From Cudoniella acicularis (Eukaryota; Ascomycota; Leotiomycetes; Helotiales; Helotiaceae): a stretch of DNA of 64,000 nucleotides. The stretch lies in NCBI GenBank assembly GCA_013054445.1, contig JAAMPI010000047.1:18901-82900 (forward strand), read 5' to 3'. This document shows, piece after piece, positions 1,661 to 55,881 of the stretch. The position numbers were made by a program, and so were the translations under genes. The notes beneath the pieces are model-generated. The model was not told the DNA's origin. It was given only the letters and a program-made list of their open reading frames with translations, and did no database searches. How positions within the stretch are numbered: the first letter of the stretch is position 1; every line of letters begins with the position of its first letter.

Positions 1661-3933
1661 TCAGACTATCTCGATCGATTCTTCTGAATTTTTATCCTCC
1701 CACCTCGCCATCTCCCCATCCATAATTCCATGAATATATGCCTCCCCAACCAATTGGAACCGCCTCCTCCCCGCTGCCATCTCATGGGATCCAGGATCGA
1801 TACTCGTTACGGGACGGAGAACAAAGGGTACTTGAGCACCTCGAATCAAACAAATCACATCGCCTTCACATTTTTCACCCCTATTGACTGCAAGTGGTGG
1901 CACCATTCCAATATAGCCATTCTCAGTGATGCAAAGCCTTCGATTGAGTCCGCAAGCTGGTATTAAAGTAGCGAACATCTCTTTGACGTCGTATGAGCGC
2001 ATCAAATCTGGTGGCAGAACTGTGTTTGGGTTCAAGCAATCAGGCCGATTCAACATGTCTCTGCCAAACTGGACCCATTTCTCAAAGCTAATCGCGCATG
2101 AAGATGGCGCGAGACTCTTGGTATCAGTCTTGTTTCCTATAAGGGTGCGCCAGAAAGCTTCCCGAAAATGTTGTGGGGGCTTGACATGAGGATAAAGTTG
2201 CTTTACAAAGCGAGAGGAATTGAGATGATTCCAGGATTCTTCCGCGGCGCTGAATAATCGAATATACTCATTCACGTTCCATGTTTCGTCCGATAAGGTG
2301 TTGGAGAATGATAGGGCTGTCAATGGTGGTCCCAGAGATACAATTGAGTCCAAAATCCGACCTTGTAGGACCAAAGCAAATTGGTCTCCTTCAGAACATT
2401 CGGGTTTCCTACCATTGCTTCCACCAGCGTGATAATAGTGTTTCACAATACGTGCGTCATTATAGCTGAGAATCCTCACCAGGGGTTGCCGGCTCCAGTT
2501 TGGACACCAAGAGGGTAACCCTTCCTGATTGTTGGCAAAGAAACCCACTCCCGCATAAGATAGAAGACGCAGTGGTTGATCTTGATCGAGAAGATACTGT
2601 GCAACGTTCTTGTAGACCTCTGTCAGTGCCTCTGCTTCTGATTTTTTATAGTTAGGATGTATCCTATCATCGTGCTTTCCATTGTAAAAGCCGTGAAGTC
2701 CAAACACATAATCTCTCGCATCCGTAGCATTGAACATGTTGGAATCATATAATACCGAGGTGAAAGAAATATCGTTGTCTTTGAATCTCTTTCGAAAGTC
2801 GTTCATTATTCCTAAAGCGATGGGGCCACCCTGTGGACGTAGTCGTGTCAACGGATCCTTTGTAATCTCTAGAAAGGACCCAAGCGACGGATGCCGAATG
2901 CAAGTGGCGATGGCGCCGACTAGATGCTCCCAGGAAAATTGGCTTCTTCCATAGAAAACTCGTATCGAGGAAGCCAATGTGACTTCCTGCACAACCCAAA
3001 TCCTCGTAAACCACTACAACGAATTAGCACTATAAATTTTGGCAGAGGAGGGAGGAGGAGAGGAGCCGAGAGGATGAAACTTCCTCCCGACCACTTAGAA
3101 TAGGAAATTGGGGCCAAGGGACAAAGGAAAAGGTTGGTTACAGGATTCCTGACCAGCGCCAAAAACGCGAGCCATCTAGGATGCCGGATATAACCAGCGT
3201 ACTGCAAATAAATGTCAACCTCACTCGCGTACGTCTTCAAATCCAGAAATGCCAGCTCGTTGATCATGTCAGCGGCAAGAAGTGCTTCCTTCGCCTCGTG
3301 TACCTGAGGAAGAGCTCCTTCGGGTGCTGGAGATGTCTGCAAACAGACCGAGACGATAAATGCCTTGATGTAAATCTCTCTCATGAGACCAACCTGGCTA
3401 CCCTTCTCTTCTTCGTCTTGTTGATTGATGCAAATTGCATCCATCCAAAGTATTTTCGGCCTCCACCAAGAGCTTCTGTTTGAGAGAACTGTGTATGTAC
3501 TCTTTGGAACATTCATTCGTTTGCCATTGACCCAAATATTTTCTCTGATACTCGCATCTCCCCACGTGTATGAAATTGCCTCGTAAGAAGGCACGTTGTC
3601 CAGTGATACTTCGAATAGGCTACATCGAACGTCCGAGAGTGGTATTCGAGGATGTAAAACTAGTAGACGTACACTTTCTCCATGGTTCTTCAAAGGAGTG
3701 TAAAAATACTGTTCTTGCTGAGTCCAATTGGTTTCAAAATTCGTGCGCCGTGGGAATAGATCGCGTGAGTTCCGGAGATCTCCAATCACTCTCCAAGTTT
3801 TAACGAACAAATAAAAGTTCCGGCCTGAGAAGTCCCAATTTTTAACGGGGCCGTTCCAGAGCCGAAAAATTCCAGCAAAAACTCCAGCAGATATAAATTC
3901 GAAGAAGAGCTGCTCGACAAGAGATGCAATCAC
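1661..3933 (-). CDS. HET domain protein (heterokaryon incompatibility), main part
   Basis: Two exons, 3933-3142 and 3013-1661, are joined across a 128-nt intron (3014-3141). The acceptor is ..GCTAATTCGTTGTAG, and splicing restores '..LVRNP|WFTRIWVVQEV', the usual third HET block. The first blocks are canonical: YEAISYTWGD and LWMDAICINQQD. The middle holds 'ATDARDYVFGLHG' (family: TDPRDKVFALLG). The C-terminus has the 'LVGEAYIHGIMDGE' tail common in fungal HET proteins. HET domains trigger cell death on non-self recognition. The frame before 3933 is open back to a TAG at 3946-3948 and then continues in the same frame into 3946-4680, so this is probably the C-terminal two thirds of a single membrane-anchored protein. 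No ATG serves 3933 itself (the codon there is GTG). Confidence 0.85.
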
Positions 3934-3945
3934 TTTCCCAAGAAT

Positions 3946-4680
3946 CTAAGAGAACCGATCAACATTCTCAAGCACAATGTATACTGACATGGCCAAAAGC
4001 CCCTCGAATGTGTTGTTGATGAGAAACAATAAGATCAAGGCCCATCTGTGAAGCCACAGCAGTGCTCTGAGTTGAATGGTGGCAATGATCTTGGATTGAG
4101 ATGAGAGAATCCAAACACTGTGAGCCATATGAATCCATGCATATTTTCGAGGAGGGTACACCAACAGACACAGCCAGTGGGATCGAGGTAGCGCGAAAGA
4201 ACCGTTGATGCGAAAAAGCATTGTAACGAGGGGTGCCCATATTATACAACTGACGAGTTTGTACTGCGCATCTGCTTTGACTTCGGGTTTGGCGACAATT
4301 TCATAGATCTCTCTCGCGTCTTTCCTGGTTTCAGGTCCTCCCAATCTTTGAAGAACATTGGATATTTCTGTCCAAATACTAGGACTGGCCCCTCTTCTCA
4401 ATAGAGCCGGTATCTCGCTAAGAATGCGTAGCTCTCGTCTCACGGTCCCCCAAGCCTTACCACGAACGTTCACTTTGCATTCAGCTAAGAAAGGGTAGAC
4501 AGCGTGGTAAAAGACCCTAAAAATAGCCCACAAAGGGTAGTTCGCAACAGCCCAAGTGTCCGATAAGCCGAGGAAAAAGAGGAACAGTACCGAAAGAGTC
4601 CGCCAAAAGGCTGCTTCCAGCTTGGGTTCAAGCCTGAGGGCTATGCTGGCCAAGCGCGCCGAAACTGGAATTGCAGACAT
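3946..4680 (-). CDS. Multi-pass membrane N-terminus, probably of the same HET protein
   Basis: The frame opens with ATG at 4680 and encodes several hydrophobic segments (for example around 'LSVLFLFFLGLS', 'CIIWAPLVTMLF' and 'WALILLFLINN'). It stops at TAG 3946-3948. The next in-frame residues run straight into the HET part, which itself starts with another hydrophobic stretch. Either CAG mutated to TAG (a CpA-to-TpA change), which breaks the gene, or a tiny intron of about 39 nt removes the stop (GTATAC..CTCTTAG keeps the frame). Such an intron would be shorter than any other here. I favour one gene, 1661-4680, recently damaged. An RNA read across 3946 would settle it. Confidence 0.6.
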   Translation of the reverse strand: MSAIPVSARLASIALRLEPKLEAAFWRTLSVLFLFFLGLSDTWAVANYPLWAIFRVFYHAVYPFLAECKVNVRGKAWGTVRRELRILSEIPALLRRGASPSIWTEISNVLQRLGGPETRKDAREIYEIVAKPEVKADAQYKLVSCIIWAPLVTMLFRINGSFALPRSHWLCLLVYPPRKYAWIHMAHSVWILSSQSKIIATIQLRALLWLHRWALILLFLINNTFEGLLAMSVYIVLENVDRFS

Positions 4681-5189
4681 TGTGATAATTGTAAGTGAAG
4701 AATATCATGGGTGATAGGGCAGGAAACTGGGTCTCGACTCTCTAGAAAATCGCGAAAGACTGCGAAGAGGAGAGCAAAACTCACGATAATATAAATGAGA
4801 GAAGGAGCTAAAACAGGGGGCAAAACGCCGAATAAAATGGGGAAATGAATGTGACTTCTGCAGAGACGACTAAAAGTTGGGGAAGGAAGCCCTGGGCGGA
4901 AATATAACAACTTTATGGTAGAGCGGGAAGCAAAACTGCCAAAACCTGAGCGCTTGGCTTGCGCCACCACGCCCAGCTGAAATTGGTGCGACGTCAGCTA
5001 CACCAGCCCATTGTGTAATGTTGGCTTCAGCAATAATCCCTCATTCAAAAGAATATCTAGCTGGCTTAAATGTAAACAACTGGTTCGATTCGGTTCGGGT
5101 ACGGCGGTACCGGTACCGATCCTTCGGGTTGAAACCGGCATGAAGAACATTCCCTTAGCAACGATCTAAATACTTTCCTATCCATACAC
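4681..5189. other. Intergenic / 5' region of the HET gene
   Basis: No gene is seen. A 14-bp perfect palindrome, CGGTACCGGTACCG, lies at 5105-5118 next to repeats of GGTTCG (5078-5100). Its meaning is unknown. The 3' end of the reductase gene follows. Confidence 0.5.
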
Positions 5190-29459: not shown

Positions 29460-31900
29460 TTAAAACCTCAGATCCCATCCGATCTGAGGACCCAACTTTG
29501 GTAACTCCTCGGCAACACTTTGTACATCTTTGTCGCCGCGACCACTGAGACATATGACGATATCCTCACCCTTCTTCATCGTCTTTGCCAGCTCAAGAGC
29601 GCCCCACACAGCGTGTGCTGTCTCTAAAGCAGGAATGATACCTTCCAGCTGGCTTATCAACCTGAATCCTATGAAGGCCTCAGCATCTGTTGCTGCGATG
29701 AATTTCGCTCTTTCATTATCTTTCCAGGATGAAAGCTCAGGTCCGACACCGGGGTAATCGAGACCAGCAGATACGGAGTGCGTATCGGAAATTTGGCCGT
29801 GTTTGTCTTGTAGGACATATGTTCGAACACCATGCAAAACACCTTTTGAGCCTCCTGATAAGGTAGCGCTATGCCTGTTTGTATCTAGACCATCTCCGCC
29901 TGCTTCGACACCAAGAAGTTTGACGCTTGGGTCTTTTGAAAAAGGATAGAACATGCCGACCGCATTACTGCCACCCCCAACGCATGCAACAACTGCATCA
30001 GGTAATTTTCCACGCTTTTCTTGCATTTGAGCTTTCGTCTCGTCCCCAATGACTGATTGGAAAGTACGAACGATGGTGGGGAAGGGATGAGGTCCAATTG
30101 CTGAGCCGATGACATAATGTGTAGTGTCCAGCTTCACGACCCAAGCACGCATGGCTTCGTTGACAGCATCACGAAGGGTGCGAGAGCCAGCCTCAACGGC
30201 GACGACTGAGGCACCGAGAAGCTTGATACGGAATACGTTGAGGGCCTGTCTTCGGACATCTTCCTATAAAATGGTCAGAACAAGTAGTGAAAACGATTAG
30301 GTGTTCATAACTTACAGCTCCCATGTATACAGTGCACTTCATACCGAACTTTGCACAAACTGTTGCTGTAGCCACACCATGTTGACCAGCTCCTGTCTCT
30401 GCAATAATCTCGGTCTTTCCCAGCCTCCGTGCCAACAAAACTTGACCCAAAGCATTGTTGATCTTGTGACTTCCGGTATGATTTAAATCTTCTCTCTTCA
30501 ACCAGATATTAGCCCCACCAGCGTACTCGGTTAACCTCTCAGCCATATGCAGCTGACCTGGTCTTCCCATCCAAGGATAATATGATCGATACTCTTCCCA
30601 AAAAGCAGGATCATCCTTAATCTTGTTAAAACCCTCTTCGAGCTCAAATAAACAGTCCATCAGCGACTCGGGGACATATTGCCCGCCAAATTCGCCGAAC
30701 CGTGCAGGCAAAGCAGCTGGGTTAACCGGACCATCTGTGTTGAGTGCCTCAATCTGGTCAGCCAAACCAACGCCTTCACTCTCGCGAATAACAGCATCGA
30801 CTTGCACGTTGTCTCCATTTGGCTGTTGGGCTTCATGCACTGCTTCCACAATCCCAACTTCTCGTGTCAAGCCACCGTTAGGGGCATTTCTTCGTCCAGA
30901 GACTTGAGCACAATATTCTTCAACAGCTTTTGCTCCTTGCCCAGATGGCGCCTCGCTCAATGTTGTGACAATTTGACTTCCAATGACCACACCATCTGCA
31001 ATTTTTGCAACACTTAAGAAATGATCCCGAGTAGAAACACCGAAACCCACAGCCGCAGGCTTATTTCCTGAGTACTCTTTCACACGCCTCAGCAAATCTG
31101 GTAGACCCGTGTTCAGTGTTCCTGTAGCGCCAGTGACTCCCATACGCGAAACAACATATATAAACGAGTCGGCAAGTTTGCAGAGGAGCTTCATTCGTGG
31201 CTCGGAAGTGGCTGGGGCTATAAGAGGGACATAGGATAATCTGAAAATGGTGAGTTAGAATACCTTCATAGTGAAAGAAATTAGTTATGACTCACCCGCC
31301 TTTCGTGCAGAAATTCCTAAAGCTTATAGCTTCTTCGGGAGGTAAGTCCACGACAATGAATCCATTGACGCCTGCTTCTCGGCAGTCCTTGAGCAGTCTT
31401 TCTTCGCCATAGCTCAGCATTGGGTTGTAGTATCCCATAAACAAAATTGGCGCTCTCAGTCCCTTCTTTCGCACTTCCCGAACTATTTCTAAGGTTGATT
31501 CCACTGTGACTCCGTTCTTTAGGGCAATCTTGAGAATTGTAAGCCATTGCTATTCGCTGAAGGTGCTATATACGAACAGTATTCGACTTTTGAATTGTCG
31601 GGCCATCGGCAATGGGGTCGGTGAAGGGAATTCCAAGTTCAATTACATCTGTTGAAAGACGTTAGCAAGCATTTAATTGTTCAGATTCGAGTGAAATACC
31701 GGCACCACCAGCTTCCATTCCCAATAGAACGTCTACCGTTTCTTCTGGTGTCGGGAATCCTGCCGTAACATAGGTGACCAGAGCCGGCTGTCCAACAAAT
31801 CAGTATTGTCGATTCAATGCGTTTGCGAAATCTGAGATGGATTAATACTTACTCTTCCCTCTTTCTTGCATTGCGCGAACGTTTTTTTGAGGCCTTCCAT
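29460..31900 (-). CDS. TRP5: Bifunctional tryptophan synthase (alpha-beta fusion)
   Basis: Six exons: 31900-31853, 31787-31700, 31648-31578, 31528-31296, 31240-30316 and 30263-29460. The introns are 49-65 nt and the product is 722 residues, normal for fungi. The N-terminal TIM barrel is the alpha part ('[17 protein letters not shown]' holds the catalytic acid residues; 'AAVGFGVST'). It cleaves indole-3-glycerol phosphate. The beta part follows after a linker: '[11 protein letters not shown]', 'HTGSHKINN' with the PLP lysine, 'ETGAGQHG', and '[10 protein letters not shown]', the phosphate-binding loop. It condenses indole with serine. This fusion makes the last two steps of tryptophan synthesis in the cytosol. 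The gene looks intact, and the ATG is followed by the usual 'MEGLKKTF' start. Confidence 0.97.
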
Positions 31901-44576: not shown

Positions 44577-46496
44577 ATGGCATATCCGCCACTGGATCTT
44601 GCCCAGGATGAAATAAGACTCCTTTCTTTGGTCGTCGACGACGACTCCAACAAATCCATACAGTGCACAACCACCATCACCAAGCTCGCTAATGCTCCTC
44701 CGTTTAAAGCCCTCTCCTATTTTCGCGGCGATCGGTTTGACCGCAGGTCTGTTATGCTCAATGGAGAACGGCTGATGGTCCCCAAAAACTTGGATGCCGC
44801 ACTTCGAGCACTCTACCGACACGAACAAAACGCCATATGGGTCGATGTTCTCTGTATCAACCAGGACGATGGAGTCGAAAAGAGCCATCAAGTCGGCCTC
44901 ATGTCAGAAATCTATGGTTGCGCGGCTGAGGTGCTGGCTTGGCTGGGAGCACCAATTGGAAGTCAGCGGTGGACCAATGGCGCCTTGATTTTCATTCAAC
45001 TATGGGCTCAGTTGGATTGGAAGTTAGATAACAAAGCGGATGTGCAACAAATGCTCAGCCAGAAGCCATTTTGGTTGAGGCAAAGCTGGCAACAAGCCCA
45101 AGATTTTTTATTGCTGCCTTTCTGGAAGCGGAGATGGATACTTCAAGAACTTGTTCTAGCGAGGAAAGCTTTCCTCTTATGCGGAGGGAAGAAAGTTGCC
45201 ATGGGCGATGTCGAAAAGGTTATGGAAACTTGGAAACGGTTACAAGAACCAAGTTTCGCATTTGAAATCAAGCAATACATTCAGTGGGTACAGCCAGTGG
45301 CGACCGGAAGATTGCAGCTGTACTCCAAGTTGCGTGCTTCGAGGCTGAAACATGGAACTTCTCCGACATTGGCCACGCTACTCGAAGTATGTCAAGCTAT
45401 GGATGTCTCAGACCCTCGAGATCAAGTCTACGCGCTGTTAGGCATGGCGGAAAAGTGCGACATTGTCATTGACTACACAAAATCTGCAAAAGATGCCTTG
45501 ACTGATATCGCCGCTCAGATGATAAAATCATCTAAACACCTGGATATATTGCGGGACGCGGGAGTCGTTGATTTGAAGCCAGTGGAGCGCTTTGACTTGC
45601 CTTCGTGGGTGCCAACGTGGGAGCGACCTCCTTGTCTCCCGTTACCAAAAACATTCGATTCTTCCAGTAATTACGATGCAATATATCATTTCGACGAGGA
45701 TGAATTGTTGGGAGAGCAGAACAGAGCGCGATTGTTCGCCAATGGTATCAAGTGCGGCAACATTATTGAAGTCGATTCAGCAGAGGTCATGATCGAAAAC
45801 CCCGCACAAATCCTAGGTCAACACTTCGTCCGCTACAAATTGCACCAAAAGTACCCAACAGGAATTCCAGTATTGCAGGCGATCTTCAGAACGATGCTAC
45901 TCGACAACAATTTTACCTCCTCAGAAAGGCTCACAGCAGATGACAACAAATTTTTCGACCTCGCAGCGGGCTTCCTTTTCATGCTCCAACTCATGGACCA
46001 AGTCAAGAATGAGAGTCTCTTCGAGCTGGCAATGACATACGACGTCTCCGTCGACAACGACGAAGAATTACCAGATTACGCCGAGTCATTCTTGAAATAC
46101 ACCGATCAAACCTCAAACAATCGGGCCGTGCAAGACATCCTCGAATTATTCCTCGGCACCTCAGAATTGCCTTCACAATTGCAATGGCCAAAAGAGCTGG
46201 ATCTCAAACGCGGCCAGGCAAATCTCAGACCCTTCCTCGCCGAAGCAGCGAATTGTTTGGACTCTCGGTGCATGTTCTCGCTCGGAAAAGGATATTTTGG
46301 TGTTGGACCTCTCGGAATTCAACCTGGTGATATGGTCTGTGTACTTTGGGGTTGCGATGTGCCGCTTGTGATCAGAAGAGTTGATGATTATTATCTTCTG
46401 GTTGGCGCTTGTTTTGTATTAGGTTTCATGGATGGAGAGGCGAGGAAAATGGTTGAGGAGGGAAAAAGGCGAGTAAGAACTTTTAATTTGCATTAG
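44577..46496 (+). CDS. HET domain protein, divergent, intact
   Basis: A single exon of 639 residues from ATG 44577 (earlier in-frame codons include GTG only). The HET blocks are 'FKALSYFRGD' (family: YxALSYxWG, so the usual Trp is replaced), 'AIWVDVLCINQDDGVEKSHQV' in two pieces, 'WKRRWILQELVLARKAFL' and 'VSDPRDQVYALLGMA'. The C-terminal tail 'YYLLVGACFVLGFMDGEA' matches the HET1 tail. HET proteins take part in non-self recognition and cell death in fungi. No membrane segment, NACHT or ankyrin repeat is visible. The altered first motif may change activity. The gene is uninterrupted and lies in tandem with the SNTX-GTPase gene 830 bp downstream. Confidence 0.92.
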   Translation: MAYPPLDLAQDEIRLLSLVVDDDSNKSIQCTTTITKLANAPPFKALSYFRGDRFDRRSVMLNGERLMVPKNLDAALRALYRHEQNAIWVDVLCINQDDGVEKSHQVGLMSEIYGCAAEVLAWLGAPIGSQRWTNGALIFIQLWAQLDWKLDNKADVQQMLSQKPFWLRQSWQQAQDFLLLPFWKRRWILQELVLARKAFLLCGGKKVAMGDVEKVMETWKRLQEPSFAFEIKQYIQWVQPVATGRLQLYSKLRASRLKHGTSPTLATLLEVCQAMDVSDPRDQVYALLGMAEKCDIVIDYTKSAKDALTDIAAQMIKSSKHLDILRDAGVVDLKPVERFDLPSWVPTWERPPCLPLPKTFDSSSNYDAIYHFDEDELLGEQNRARLFANGIKCGNIIEVDSAEVMIENPAQILGQHFVRYKLHQKYPTGIPVLQAIFRTMLLDNNFTSSERLTADDNKFFDLAAGFLFMLQLMDQVKNESLFELAMTYDVSVDNDEELPDYAESFLKYTDQTSNNRAVQDILELFLGTSELPSQLQWPKELDLKRGQANLRPFLAEAANCLDSRCMFSLGKGYFGVGPLGIQPGDMVCVLWGCDVPLVIRRVDDYYLLVGACFVLGFMDGEARKMVEEGKRRVRTFNLH

Positions 46497-47325: not shown

Positions 47326-50300
47326 ATGTCTGCCGAAACCTTGAATCGAGCGGCCCTAGGCCAGGTCGCTCTTTTAGGGATGCTTTACGATGCTCGAAGC
47401 GATCAGTTCCTTCCACATTCAGCGCTCAACGGTGCTCTTCCAGACGAGGCTGTGAATCGCTCAAATGTGCGCCCGAAACACCAAACACTCATCTCCAATG
47501 ATTCCTACAAAGACAAGTTCGAGAAAATGGGGGTGACTTCAGAGCTGGGAGCGAGCTTTCTAGCAGGTTTGGTCAATGTGGAAGGCGCTGGACGATATCT
47601 TCAAACACCAGATCGCGGCACAGCCCTGACGGCTCACCGAGCACTGCACTACACCATTTCGACTGTGCAGGAGAGCATTAATCTCGCAGGTGGCAATTTT
47701 AAAGATTTCCTCAGTACTGATCAACTTTTAAGCACTGTTTCTGCTACCCATTTTGTCAGTGGAGTTACGTGGGGAGCCAGTTGTATCGTGAGTGCAACTC
47801 GTACAATTCCGAGCGAAAATGACCGGCCTGGGGTTGAAAAGGCCTTGGAATCGGCTTTCGAAGCTTTCGAGTGGACAGATGAATGGGGATTCGATGGAGC
47901 TTCGACATACCCACCCCAGCTCAAAGAGGAATTCGGAGACATAATGGTCTATTCGGACATTCTTGATCACAATGAGTATCTTCTGAACGACTTGGATGCC
48001 GCTCACACTCTCTTCGTTAACCTTCCCAAGCTTGTCGAGGAGTCAACTGATCCCAAAGGAACTCCCTTATCGTATACTTTACTACCCATTGGCTTTCTCT
48101 CCATGTTCTTTGGGGTTTCGATTCCTAGCACCGTCTCACAGGGTCACATCAGCGCGGAATATCAAGAGAAGTACGTTGGGTTGCTGGACGACCACCGGGT
48201 TGCCCAAGGGTCACTTAATGATTATTACCAACAACTGAAAGACCATACTCTCTGCGTAAGACCAATGGATGTATTTCGGGTTTCTGATCGTGTGAGAGCC
48301 GCCGAAAAAGCCGAAACGGAGCTTCGGTCAACATACACGAGATTGGTAAAGGACATCAGAGCAGGCAAAGCGAGCTCGCAGGACTTGTCGAAAATGATCG
48401 AAACATTTACGCAAGGGAACAGTTCGCCGAAAGCTCTCACGGCCATCACGAAGGAGTTCTCAGAGAGATTGTCTTTTGTTGACTTTATTGAAGGAAAAGG
48501 GGCAAAATATATTGGCTACGATGGCGCTTGTCGTCAGGAATTTGAAAAATGCAGTCGGAAAAAATCTTGGGGCGATTCCTACATTTTCTACTTCAACGAC
48601 GATTCAATGAAAGACGCCCAGGCATGGAAAGAACACCTCGACCTTCTGACGGATATTCTCGACAAGATGACTGAAAAAGAACGAATGTTTGTGGTTGACT
48701 GTAACGCCACTGGTACGCCATTCAAGGAGCTATGCGTGGTCCAATATCAAGAAGAAGAACTCGTTTCGACAAACGTCTTGAAGCAAAGAAGACATCTTGC
48801 TGATAAATGCATTTTGCGATACGACCCCAGATACTTGGATGAGACCATGAAGGACGATCCATGGCCACCAAAACGGAAAATGGTGAAGATTCCTTGTCCA
48901 GGTGCCGGTCCAAGTTGTAAGATGAACCACGAGTGGATCTGCTACAAATGTCACTCCCCAGTAGAGTTCGGTACGATGACCGAGTACATGTATTGCGAAT
49001 GCGGTCGAGTGAGGTGCAGGGGGTTATTATACGGGTTCGACTGCCAGAAACCAGGACATACGCCAAAGTACGCAAAATACGAAGACTATCAATTGTTGAG
49101 TGTCATGAAAGCTCTCGTACCACCACCAGAGGTCAATATACTGATTCTGGGGGAGACTGGTGTGGGGAAGTCGACCTTCGTCAACGCTTTTATCAACTAC
49201 TTGACCTTCTCATCGTTGGATCATGCCTTGAGTGCCTCGCAGCTGAACTGGGTCATCCCTTGTTCTTTTGCATCATCCGCCGTGGATCAGGACACGGGCA
49301 AGCTCATGCAGAGAGTGGTACAAATTGGCTCCTCGGAAGCGGATGAAGTGAGTGGTGTGAAAGGGAAATCAGCAACCCAGAAAGCAACTGCCTATCCTAT
49401 TTACATAGGAGGAAAACTCATCCGCCTCATCGATACTCCCGGAATTGGCGACGTTCGCGGTATCGAACAGGACAAACTGAACATGGTTCACACACTCTCC
49501 GTGTTGAGAAATTATGATACACTTCATGGAATCATGATTCTTCTCAAGCCCAACAATGCTCGTTTGACACTTATGTTCAAGTTCTGCATCAACGAGCTTT
49601 TGACACATCTCCACCGCGATGCTGCAAAGAATATGATATACGGTTTCACAAACACCCGAGGTTCGATGTATACCCCAGGGGACGCAGTTGGACCGCTTGA
49701 GACCCAGTTGTCGAATTACCAAGGAGTACTGCCCGGTCTTTACGAAAACACGGTTTACTGCTTTGATTCAGAGAGCTTTCGCTATTTAGCAGCACGGAAA
49801 CAACCCGACGAACTCGATCTAGGCAACCTCGATGACTACCGAAGAAGCTGGGAGCATTCCGCCACCGAATCCCAAAGACTTATGGACTATTTTGAAAAGC
49901 GAAATCCACATCTGGTGAAAAGTACACTGGAATTGGCTGAAACTAGAGACCTCATAGCTCGACTTGTACAACCAATGGCGGAAATTATCAAGGTGGTTAC
50001 TAAAACCATTGCGGATAGCAAGAAGGCTATGGATGATTTGTCCAATACGCAGAAGAGCGGAACAGCATTAAAGGGCCTCCTAAACTTGACGAAAACAACG
50101 TTGGTCACAAAGCAACTGGACAGGCCTTATACTGTCTGTGATAATACAGCTTGTGTTTCGCGTGTGGCAAATTCTGGTGGAGGAGGCAGTGTTGTGCTTC
50201 GAAAGTCCCTTTGTAAGTGCACCTAATTCATGGAATGTTCTATTTGAAATTCTTTTTGCCCCTTCGACCGTTTCCAGACCTCCACGATAGAACTCGCAAC

Positions 50301-51564
50301 ACTTCGAAAAATAAACACTCTACTACTGTGAGATATTATGAGAAGGCGACACGAATCCTATTTTGCCCTCGTACAATTTGCTCTTTAAGAAATTGAGTGT
50401 GTATTTTTCGAGTAGTATCGTGAAATATGCCTAGGAACTGTCGAAGGGAAATATATCTTCATTTTACTAATAGACAACAGGTCACGATCCATGTTCTCTC
50501 ACCGAAATAAAACGAGACGAGCGAGGCGCGGCCGGCATCTCAGGCTGCTATGCCTTCCGAGAAGATGGAAAATGCCGCAAATGTTCACACCCCCCAGCCG
50601 ACCACATGCACGTCATGGTCCTATACTCGGAAGCCACTGAAACGTCGATAGATCCAATCGTTCAGCAGAAACTCAACGCCAATGCTAGCGAATTCCAAGT
50701 GAAAGACGCGCAAGTCAACGCTCTGAAACAACGCATTGCTGAATACCAAACAGAGAAAGACTTGCTGGAGGAAGCACAAGCAAAGTTCAGCCATTACCTG
50801 GAGCAGAATTCAATTACAGTGTATAACGATGTGACGATTGAGTATTTGGACCACTTAATCAAAGACGAGAAGGCGAAAATGGGCCCCAAGTCGGGAGTTC
50901 ACGATACCAGCGCGCGGATCTGATCGATGCTCTCGAAATCAGCAAAAAGAAACACCTCGATTTCGTTAATGCAATGCGGAAGGGAAAACAAGTGCAATTC
51001 GGGTCAAAATACCAAGCTTTAGACGAGAAGGGGGTGCATCGACTCGTCACATCCCTTTGCGCAATGAAGCACTACGGCCAACAGCTCAAACAAGCTGAAG
51101 CAGCAGTCAAGAATGCCTACGCAGCGCAGTTTAACGAACGTCCCTACCGCATCCGCAGACCGGAAGCTTTCATGTTTGGATCGTCAGGCCATTCATCTTG
51201 GAAAAAGAAATCCTCTTCTTCGTGGGGGAAACCAGTCAAGAGCATGCTCTACGACTTCGGAGGAGCGTCAAATACGAAGAGAAATTCAGAAATGCCGCCA
51301 ACCCTCCCCCCTTTAACGCAGCCGATGAACGGTTCCAGCTCAAGAGCATCCATGCCACCCCCCGGGAATTCTTCTGGCTCGAAGAAGAACTATTTGGATA
51401 GTGACGAGAAGTCTTCATATGATGGGAGTGGGATTTCAGCGCCGCCCCCGTATGATTTCCCTGCGAATGGGACGACGATTAGTGGGATTGGGGGGCAGAG
51501 CGCGAACAGACGGCTTAGTTTGAAGAATTTTATTAAGGCTAAGGTGTTTAGGAGGAATCCTTGA
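47326..51564 (+). CDS. SNTX-type MACPF domain fused to a P-loop GTPase
   Basis: Exon 1 is 47326-50212. A 268-nt intron (50213-50480) restores '..KSLC|HDPCSLTEI', and exon 2 runs to 51564. Total is about 1,323 residues. Residues 1-250 resemble the stonustoxin-type MACPF domain: 'GMLYDARSDQFLP' near the start, 'LGASFLAGLVNVEGAGRYL', 'ATHFVSGVTWGA', and 'LFVNLPKLVEES' followed by 'SYTLLPIGFL'. A helical stretch and a thioredoxin-like region follow (about 270-510), as in that family. A Cys/His cluster lies at about 523-590. The GTPase has GETGVGKS (609-616) and DTPGIGD (703-709). Its G4 motif is unusual ('GFTNTR'). After the intron come a second cysteine module ('CRKCSHPPADHMHVM'), a coiled coil and a Pro/Ser-rich tail. 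There is no signal peptide. One base is missing in GGGCCCC (50881-50887), probably an error or a late break. Function is unknown. Confidence 0.8.
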
Positions 51565-53433: not shown

Positions 53434-55881
53434 ATGTCTCTCCAAAGATCAGCAGGCTATGGCTCCTTGGTCGCCCTGGGCATTGGACTTGGCGACCTTG
53501 CAACTCTCGTATCGTTGAGCAAGCGAGTTGGAAATTGGATGACGGTCGTTTCTGGAGATGAGGACTTCCTCAAACTTCTAGACCAGGATGAGATGGATAT
53601 TCTACGAAGACGAGGACTGCTCGATATAGCTCGTTTCAACAAGAAGTGGGGCTCTCAGATGGGGCTACTCTCAAATGGCCGCCCAACAGTCTTCGAGGGC
53701 GACATCGCAGAGAAAGCACTTCAAAAGCTCAGCCGTTTCACTGCAATAATGGTATGTGTGGTTGCTGCACTGGACGCATTTGCGGCTTCTGATGTCGTCA
53801 AATCTATTATCAAGAGAGTTCTCCTTGAATTATTACGTACAACAGATTATGGTGCTGATATCCTGGCATCGCAATTCTCTCATCGACTTAATTCTTGGGT
53901 CTCTTCGGCCATTCTCCGAGGACTTAGCGTGGAAGCGAGGCGGATCCGACGTGGCCTCCTACAACAAAATCTAATTGTTGACGGCTTGATGCCGAAAGAC
54001 GATTCAGAACTCGTTGTTACTTTTCTGGTGTGGCTACTTGCTGATAACTCAGAGACTTACACCACACCGTCTTCCGACATTGCGGGCATTGCACTCTGCT
54101 TATCACAACTCGGAATTGATATTCTCTCCGTTGAAGGGTTTGGTGTGCCCTGCTTGCCAACCGCTTGCCGACTTATGTACAACCAAGAGGCTGTAGTAAG
54201 TCTAGACTACCGTCGATCGCGGGTCGCCTTAGAGTTGCTCCGTCGCGTACCTTGTACAACCATAAATCTGCAGTGCCCAGAAGAATCATTGACGACTTTT
54301 CCCGTCGATGCAGATACCGCCAACAGATGCCGGGCCGCATGGCTCGAAGGAAGTCAAGCTGCGGAATATATAGTTTGTCGGCCTGTCGTACCACCGGCAA
54401 ACGTTACTCACCACGATGATTTCAAGTACATTTTCTACGACTCTGGTCATCGCCCTGGTCGAACACGAACCGAAATATACCAACTGGCTTCTTGCCATGC
54501 ATTCGTTGCCAACAAAGAGCTTTGCACCAGGCTGGAACAAGTTCTTCAGCATGAATCTTCTCCTACTCTAACTTGGCTCCTTGAGCAGACGACGACAGCA
54601 ATGGCTCCGGACGCAGAGGAGTGGGACTTAAACCAGACAAAAACGCAAATCTGGAACCTCGACATGAGAGATGAAATTAAAGTGAATGCATTCACAGTGT
54701 TCCAGGCCTTCTTCATGGGGTATTTTTATTCAATATTTTTGAAACTAGTGGACACCTCTACACTTCGAGTTCAAACAGTGGATGGTGCTTGGGGTTATCG
54801 ATCACCAGTCTTTTTGTGTGATATTCGCACCGTCTGGCTCTCTTCGTCTCAAACCCGGGAACCCGGAGTACAGATTCTCCGAAGAGAAAGCGTTTTAAGC
54901 ATTCTTTCATCGCTGCTTCTTGGCAAACAGAAGGAGATATCCCGAATAAAAACTGCCTCCTTTCAGCAAGACAATTGGTGTATAGGTGTTATTGAAAAGA
55001 GAGCATTACTTATTAGAAGTATTCTCAAGCCTTGCAGAAATATTCGAGAAACTGGAAGCTTCGATCTAGTCGATGTTGACGTCAGCGGAATTCCGTCTGA
55101 CATTAATGGTGTGGTCCGTCCTGGCGTTGCCAGCGTAACCATCTCTGCTCCTCCGCGAACGCTGGAAGAATTCGAGAAATACTACTCAACACAGTCTGTA
55201 TGGGATACCCCCAGCAACCGAGGATCTGAGGATTTGGGAAATGCAGCAGATGCTACATTCCATATTGAAGCAGATTGGGACGGAAACCCGGAGACGATGC
55301 TACTTTGTGTCCGTTACAATGGACGACGTATTGAAACTATCAATCCTGCGAATGCCGACATAACTTTTCTAAAATCCTTGCAACCAGTCACGGCCATTGA
55401 ATTCAAGGAAGGGCGGCAAAGCCCGAAGTTGGAAAAAGGGGATATTGTTAATTGGGGAATTCCAGAATTACTCAACGATGACCCATTCCCGCTTCCAGTT
55501 CACCTTTCAGATCAACCAAACTTGCTTCAATTATCTTTATCTGGGCGACCACGTCTAAGGTATTATGCAGCAGAGAAGTACATGAGTCGAAGCCATCACG
55601 TGTGCATAGTGACGGAGAGTATGAGCAAGGCGTTTCAAAGATGTAGAGACATCACTAAAGGCAGTCGTTTTCGTCCTTTAATTGTTATTACCGGCAGCGA
55701 GGCTGAATCTTCCCCCACCGTAGATGATTGGGTGCCGGAAGAGATTGCAGAGAGAGCGGACAGAATCCAGAAAACACTGGCCGAAAATCACAGATTAGGT
55801 GGTGAAACTTTAAAGGGGAGCGATAGAACTTTCACTCTTGGACGCTCGAAAGTGGAAACATACCTTATTTCATCTCAGTAG
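53434..55881 (+). CDS. Large fungal protein of unknown function
   Basis: A single exon of 815 residues starts at ATG 53434 (AACATG). I do not recognise a named domain. The N-terminus is 'SLVALGIGLGDLATLVSLS', a hydrophobic/amphipathic helix of the kind found at the front of some fungal NLR-like proteins. A second hydrophobic stretch ('AIMVCVVAALDAFAA') follows. The middle has 'SSDIAGIALCLSQLGIDIL', a pattern I associate with a lineage-expanded hypothetical family. The C-terminus is acidic and charged. It is an intact long frame without RIP-type stops. It lies 1.9 kb downstream of the SNTX-GTPase gene on the same strand. Any link is only positional. Confidence 0.75.
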   Translation: MSLQRSAGYGSLVALGIGLGDLATLVSLSKRVGNWMTVVSGDEDFLKLLDQDEMDILRRRGLLDIARFNKKWGSQMGLLSNGRPTVFEGDIAEKALQKLSRFTAIMVCVVAALDAFAASDVVKSIIKRVLLELLRTTDYGADILASQFSHRLNSWVSSAILRGLSVEARRIRRGLLQQNLIVDGLMPKDDSELVVTFLVWLLADNSETYTTPSSDIAGIALCLSQLGIDILSVEGFGVPCLPTACRLMYNQEAVVSLDYRRSRVALELLRRVPCTTINLQCPEESLTTFPVDADTANRCRAAWLEGSQAAEYIVCRPVVPPANVTHHDDFKYIFYDSGHRPGRTRTEIYQLASCHAFVANKELCTRLEQVLQHESSPTLTWLLEQTTTAMAPDAEEWDLNQTKTQIWNLDMRDEIKVNAFTVFQAFFMGYFYSIFLKLVDTSTLRVQTVDGAWGYRSPVFLCDIRTVWLSSSQTREPGVQILRRESVLSILSSLLLGKQKEISRIKTASFQQDNWCIGVIEKRALLIRSILKPCRNIRETGSFDLVDVDVSGIPSDINGVVRPGVASVTISAPPRTLEEFEKYYSTQSVWDTPSNRGSEDLGNAADATFHIEADWDGNPETMLLCVRYNGRRIETINPANADITFLKSLQPVTAIEFKEGRQSPKLEKGDIVNWGIPELLNDDPFPLPVHLSDQPNLLQLSLSGRPRLRYYAAEKYMSRSHHVCIVTESMSKAFQRCRDITKGSRFRPLIVITGSEAESSPTVDDWVPEEIAERADRIQKTLAENHRLGGETLKGSDRTFTLGRSKVETYLISSQ

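Follow-up and report, generated by a model that had tools for sequence, protein, structure and literature searches.

Structure of the gene

The window analysed in this study is a 64,000-nucleotide stretch from the draft genome of Cudoniella acicularis, a helotialean ascomycete (C1249:18901-82900; assembly of 53.2 Mb in 1836 contigs). On its plus strand, we identified a gene encoding, from the N-terminus, a MACPF domain of the stonustoxin (SNTX) type, a helical and a thioredoxin-like domain, a GTPase lying between two Cys/His-rich modules, and C-terminal helices followed by a Ser/Pro-rich tail (Table 1). The ATG at position 47326, upstream of which in-frame stops lie ~30 codons away with no alternative ATG in between, opens a 966-codon open reading frame (ORF) with its stop at 50226, the last four codons of which fall inside an intron. 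An earlier note on this DNA had assigned 47326-51564 to one protein. The extent proved right, but the coding sequence does not run in one frame, being divided by the intron and again by a change of frame further downstream.

Table 1. Features of the SNTX-GTPase gene (window coordinates)
Feature	Position	Strand	Details
Exon 1	47326-50212	+	962 residues in one open frame: MACPF_SNTX, helical, thioredoxin-like, Cys/His, GTPase
SNTX-type MACPF/CDC domain	47344-48114	+	Residues 7-263; MACPF_SNTX (PF24674)
Helical cluster 1 (predicted TMH1)	47506-47604	+	Residues 61-93; secondary structure of the model
MACPF signature-like THx7G	47746-47775	+	Residues 141-150
Helical cluster 2 (predicted TMH2)	47815-47931	+	Residues 164-202; secondary structure of the model; pLDDT <50 at 186-189
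Helical (FAT-like) domain	48115-48480	+	Residues 264-385; model helices within 277-390; alignable to stonustoxin
Thioredoxin-like domain/DUF7656	48487-48825	+	Residues 388-500; PF24676; fold match reaches residue 490
First Cys/His-rich (probable zinc) module	48865-49065	+	Residues 514-580; conserved C/H positions
Toc34/GIMAP-like G domain	49117-49947	+	Residues 598-874; profile, alignment and fold matches
Second Cys/His module	50137-50611	+	C938 (exon 1) to HMH (exon 2), split by intron 1; precomputed PF26633 on relatives
Intron 1	50213-50480	+	268 nt; GTAAGT ... CTAAT ... CAG; junction identical in deposited protein P0020
Exon 2	50481-50889	+	Remainder of second Cys/His module, beginning of helical stalk
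Zone of coding-frame change	50890-50942	+	Coding sequence in relatives P0001 and P0002; attributable to damage or an assembly error, or else to a weak 53-nt intron
C-terminal helices and Ser/Pro-rich tail	50943-51564	+	Changed frame

Exon 2 matched the relatives P0001, P0002 and P0021 at 66.9-75.7% (blastp). The frame of the tail agrees with P0021 and P0022 at ~51% and also with the deposited C. acicularis protein, P0020. The C-terminal helices and the Ser/Pro-rich tail, which the earlier note described as a coiled coil and Pro-rich tail, are present in the changed frame. As residues homologous to P0001 and P0002 flank the frame-change zone on both sides, an intron of 53 nt would delete conserved residues, and this zone is better explained by a frame error, whether genuine or introduced by the assembly.

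One part of P0020 is 100% identical to exon 1. Residues 1-567 of P0020, however, match the adjacent HET gene at 99.6% identity (44577-46496, plus strand; PF06985, E 1.2e-25), and part of the conserved C-terminal region is omitted. Because the frame of the HET gene continues to its own stop, the joining of the two genes in P0020 looks like an annotation error arising from a faulty gene model.

The N-terminal half resembles stonustoxin

The MACPF_SNTX profile (PF24674) aligned to the head with an E-value of 1.4e-17 and a score of 64.3 bits against a curated cut-off of 27, and a phmmer search of the PDB placed stonustoxin alpha (E 6.8e-14) and beta (E 3.1e-13) at the top, the third match having an E-value of 0.14. 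At the sequence level, the similarity of the head to stonustoxin is far above chance. The predicted model displays the MACPF/CDC fold, a central sheet flanked by two helical clusters, which are putative equivalents of the membrane-inserting clusters of this superfamily. Within the signature-like motif, T141, H142 and G150 are present in all 93 rows of our alignment (A2) and W149 in 87, and the segment at the first helical cluster is 44 residues long in 68/93 rows.

Behind the head, the DUF7656 profile (PF24676) covered residues 388-489 (E 2.2e-23). The order MACPF, helical FAT-like and thioredoxin-like was upheld by sequence, profile and fold searches alike, in good agreement with the earlier assignment of the first ~250 residues to an SNTX-type MACPF domain and of the middle part to helical and thioredoxin-like domains. 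A CxxC redox site was found in the thioredoxin-like domain of none of the 93 aligned rows. A simple hydropathy scan, run with no dedicated signal-peptide predictor, revealed no hydrophobic N-terminal leader (19-residue hydropathy at most 0.79), and the N-termini of the relatives begin in register, inside the MACPF fold. We know of no classical signal peptide in stonustoxin or other fish SNTX proteins.

GTPase and Cys/His modules

The G domain carries G1 (GETGVGKST, residues 609-617), G2 (T684) and G3 (DTPGIGD, 703-709), while FTNTR (774-778) occupies the position of G4. The two motifs recognised in the earlier note, GETGVGKS and DTPGIGD, lie in this G domain and in the same frame as the MACPF head. 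The domain matched AIG1 (E 2e-6) and MMR_HSR1 (E 2.6e-6), and the paraseptin G-domain fold was present, G1 and G3 included. The AIG1 score was 27.7 bits (cut-off, 27) in the C. acicularis protein and 30.4 in a cyanobacterial homologue described below (L017), but fell below the cut-off in the relatives P0001 (19.3), P0010 (21.9), P0013 (26.7) and P0014 (25.9). The GTPase is the best-conserved part of the protein, the MACPF head diverging faster.

Both of the Cys/His-rich segments pointed out previously are conserved. In the first, C524, C539, C542, C557, C559 and C573 were retained in 92-93 of 93 rows and H578 in 91; position 529, a Cys in 89/93 rows, is Pro in the C. acicularis protein, which has its own Cys two residues later. 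In the second, eleven Cys/His positions were retained in 71-72 of 72 rows. Neither NACHT nor NB-ARC was among the 25 Pfam families matched by exon 1 (E up to 1), and SPRY/PRY was absent from these families too, with nothing found in the exon 2 and tail pieces.

Distribution of the fusion

A search with exon 1 yielded 19 proteins from 7993 scored candidates, all 19 of which bear the SNTX domain and 14 of which also carry an entry for PF26633 or for a P-loop/GTPase. When the GTPase half of P0001 served as the query, 1293 proteins were retrieved, and among the 120 listed, for which we counted architectures, the SNTX domain was found in 109. The remaining 11 comprise P0021 and P0022, which begin at query residue 428; P0055, P0067 and P0108, which sit on contigs of 2.4-2.6 kb; P0124, with an SNTX match below the cut-off (23.5 vs 27 bits); P0102 and P0113; and three animal proteins with a tandem GTPase, from a coral (P0030), a beetle (P0047) and a millipede (P0103). 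Most listed relatives are 1200-1300 residues long. Named carriers include Aspergillus, Exophiala, Fonsecaea, Podospora, Neurospora, Daldinia, Xylaria, Glarea, Geopyxis, Dactylellina, Icmadophila and Trichoglossum, all of which we take to be Pezizomycotina. Distances for the N-terminal and GTPase halves were correlated across 89 of the 93 rows (r 0.589, reached in 0/999 permutations), and the nearest neighbour was the same in 60/89, as expected for a unit largely inherited together.

The C. acicularis genome has three SNTX loci, in each of which SNTX is followed by DUF7656 and then the GTPase. The paralogue on C1186 encodes all domains in one frame, which stays open for 1283 residues until the stretch ends, and the copy on C1001 is interrupted. 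Near the latter, we noticed by eye an RNase H-like transposon frame (L013:3124-3990) and a frame resembling part of a NACHT-type NTPase (L015:3082-3801).

Outside fungi, P0030, P0047, P0103 and L017 have the same GTPase core, at 36-46% identity, and their C-terminal region matches exon 2. Unlike the fungal proteins, none of the four has an SNTX or DUF7656 match, and the three animal proteins carry the GTPase twice. A NACHT match in P0030 was below the cut-off (25.9 vs 26.7 bits), and other P-loop families match this protein likewise. L017 (positions 2737-4845) belongs to a Nostocales metagenome-assembled genome and contains a 733-codon, intron-less core of GTPase, Cys/His module and stalk, 46% identical over residues 602-952. 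It was unmatched in 290 other genomes sampled from the order, and its presence there is possibly due to cross-kingdom transfer. A DUF4351 gene and, by eye, a PIN-like gene are located nearby.

The window further contains a bifunctional tryptophan synthase gene (Trp_syntA and PALP; 29460-31194, minus strand) in two frames via an intron or frame error, two genes of the 2EXR family (PF20150; 25635-26705 and 36197-37024, minus strand) and, downstream of the SNTX-GTPase gene, an 815-residue ORF (53434-55881, plus strand) for which no Pfam match fell below E 0.14.

Possible function of the SNTX-GTPase protein

The SNTX-GTPase fusion is widespread and apparently unstudied. The earlier note suggested that an intracellular pore-former or scaffold gated by GTP would be new biology. 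The sequence itself is not new: the fusion is already catalogued in public databases, and its parts have Pfam entries. Among the papers listed by our literature search, which left most subscription journals out of reach, there was no functional study. The function of SNTX-type MACPF proteins is best known from fish venom, and a conserved family in ordinary moulds would offer a genetically tractable route to the roles of these perforin-like proteins outside venom. The fusion would also let one ask if a giant pore can be placed under the control of a GTP switch. The fungal cell-death repertoire includes HET, NLR-like and gasdermin-like proteins, to which the SNTX-GTPase family would add a class.

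Homology and the predicted fold support the architecture of head and motor, and from it we infer a link between the two. We tentatively favour, with confidence a little short of even, a cytosolic multidomain protein in which the membrane-acting head is controlled by the Toc34/GIMAP-like GTPase, GTP-controlled pore assembly killing or sealing a compartment. On binding GTP, the G domains would dimerise face to face or polymerise, as those of paraseptin GTPases do, and so gather the MACPF heads into a prepore. The prepore would sit on an intracellular membrane, into which the two helical clusters could insert. A compromised hyphal compartment would be killed or walled off, or an internalised membrane attacked, with the Cys/His modules and helical stalk acting as a sensing or scaffold part. 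The protein may be an internal device for cell death or defence. It is attractive to speculate, although we consider it unlikely in its entirety, that these proteins are Pezizomycotina-wide executors of intracellular immunity or allorecognition, in which the role played in NLRs by the NACHT/NB-ARC switch falls to a septin-like GTPase that assembles a perforin-type pore directly. They would then be the first GTP-gated MACPF proteins, originating from the fusion of an ancient GTPase/Cys-His/stalk core to a stonustoxin-type head. The adjacent HET gene lends weak support here, since HET candidates occur throughout the genome (652 stretches, of which 150 were scored).

Several observations weigh against GTP-controlled pore formation. 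The usual G4 motif, (N/T)KxD, is replaced by TNTR, with T775 and R778 each conserved in 89/93 rows, so the nucleotide specificity is uncertain. The second helical cluster varies from 34 to 56 residues across the 93 rows, and the highest 19-residue hydropathy (1.68, a borderline membrane helix) lies at residues 252-270, outside both clusters. The mean beta moments of the clusters (0.76 and 0.65, against 0.65 for the rest of the domain) render the amphipathic-strand test non-discriminating. The model superposes loosely (root-mean-square deviation 6.5 A over 396 residues; TM score 0.31 by query length, 0.45 by target length), MACPF folds without lytic activity are known, and the frame change at 50890-50942 may mean that this copy is broken.

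The main rival is a non-lytic scaffold, in which the head and FAT-like helices bind or shape a membrane and a septin-like GTPase polymer marks, tethers or repairs internal membranes or septal pores. By fold, the G domain lies in the neighbourhood of Toc34, GIMAP and septin proteins, which function as membrane-bound scaffolds; conservation peaks in the GTPase, and amphipathicity of the predicted TMHs could not be demonstrated by the beta-moment scan. Nevertheless, the invariant MACPF signature and the constant length of the cluster 1 segment suggest constraint beyond plain binding, and we regard a scaffold as rather unlikely. Decay of the C. acicularis copy, with the family functional elsewhere, is compatible with any of these functions and is a real possibility, though one we lean against: relatives code through the frame-change zone and the C1001 copy, near the transposon-like frame, is also interrupted, but exon 1 is open for 962 residues with motifs and splice sites intact, and single frame errors are common in draft assemblies such as this one as well.

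An offensive or antimicrobial pore-former aimed at competitors, grazers or endobacteria, which would leave the hypha through lysis or unconventional secretion and need its GTPase only for storage or assembly inside, appears improbable. Fish SNTX proteins do work outside cells and the head evolves faster than the motor, but a protein of 1200-1300 residues with a conserved GTPase requiring cytosolic GTP would make a poor secreted toxin, and the scan found no hydrophobic leader. It is scarcely conceivable that an SNTX gene and a GTPase gene were read as one, even though P0020 is itself wrongly joined to the HET gene, because SNTX and GTPase-half matches occur together in most listed relatives. 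For exon 1, two separate genes are ruled out by the uninterrupted frame both here and in the C1186 paralogue, in line with the single gene proposed in the earlier note.

Comparison with known systems

Fish cytolysins such as stonustoxin alpha/beta (PDB 4wvm) have three N-terminal domains of the same fold and in the same order as predicted for the fungal protein. They end in PRY-SPRY, where the fungal protein has the Cys/His module, GTPase, second Cys/His module, helical stalk and Ser/Pro tail, and activity is known for the fish proteins only. Our fold list also contained the MACPF structures 8b6v and 3kk7. PlyB/EryB (PF01823), the fungal aegerolysin partners, share the MACPF/CDC superfamily with the fusion; in the accessible part of PMC9505663, they work as partners of separate aegerolysin proteins and a GTPase is unmentioned. 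The paraseptins (GIMAP/AIG1 and Toc34/Toc159) have the G-domain fold in common with the fungal protein, which differs from them by TNTR at G4 and by its fusion to MACPF. The fungal STAND/NLR and HET incompatibility proteins differ in that the GTPase of the SNTX fusion is not NACHT/NB-ARC by Pfam and no repeat sensor domain was detected in the fusion. Their likeness to it is one of analogy, not of membership: a multidomain NTPase with a putative death effector at its N-terminus, here adjacent to a HET gene.
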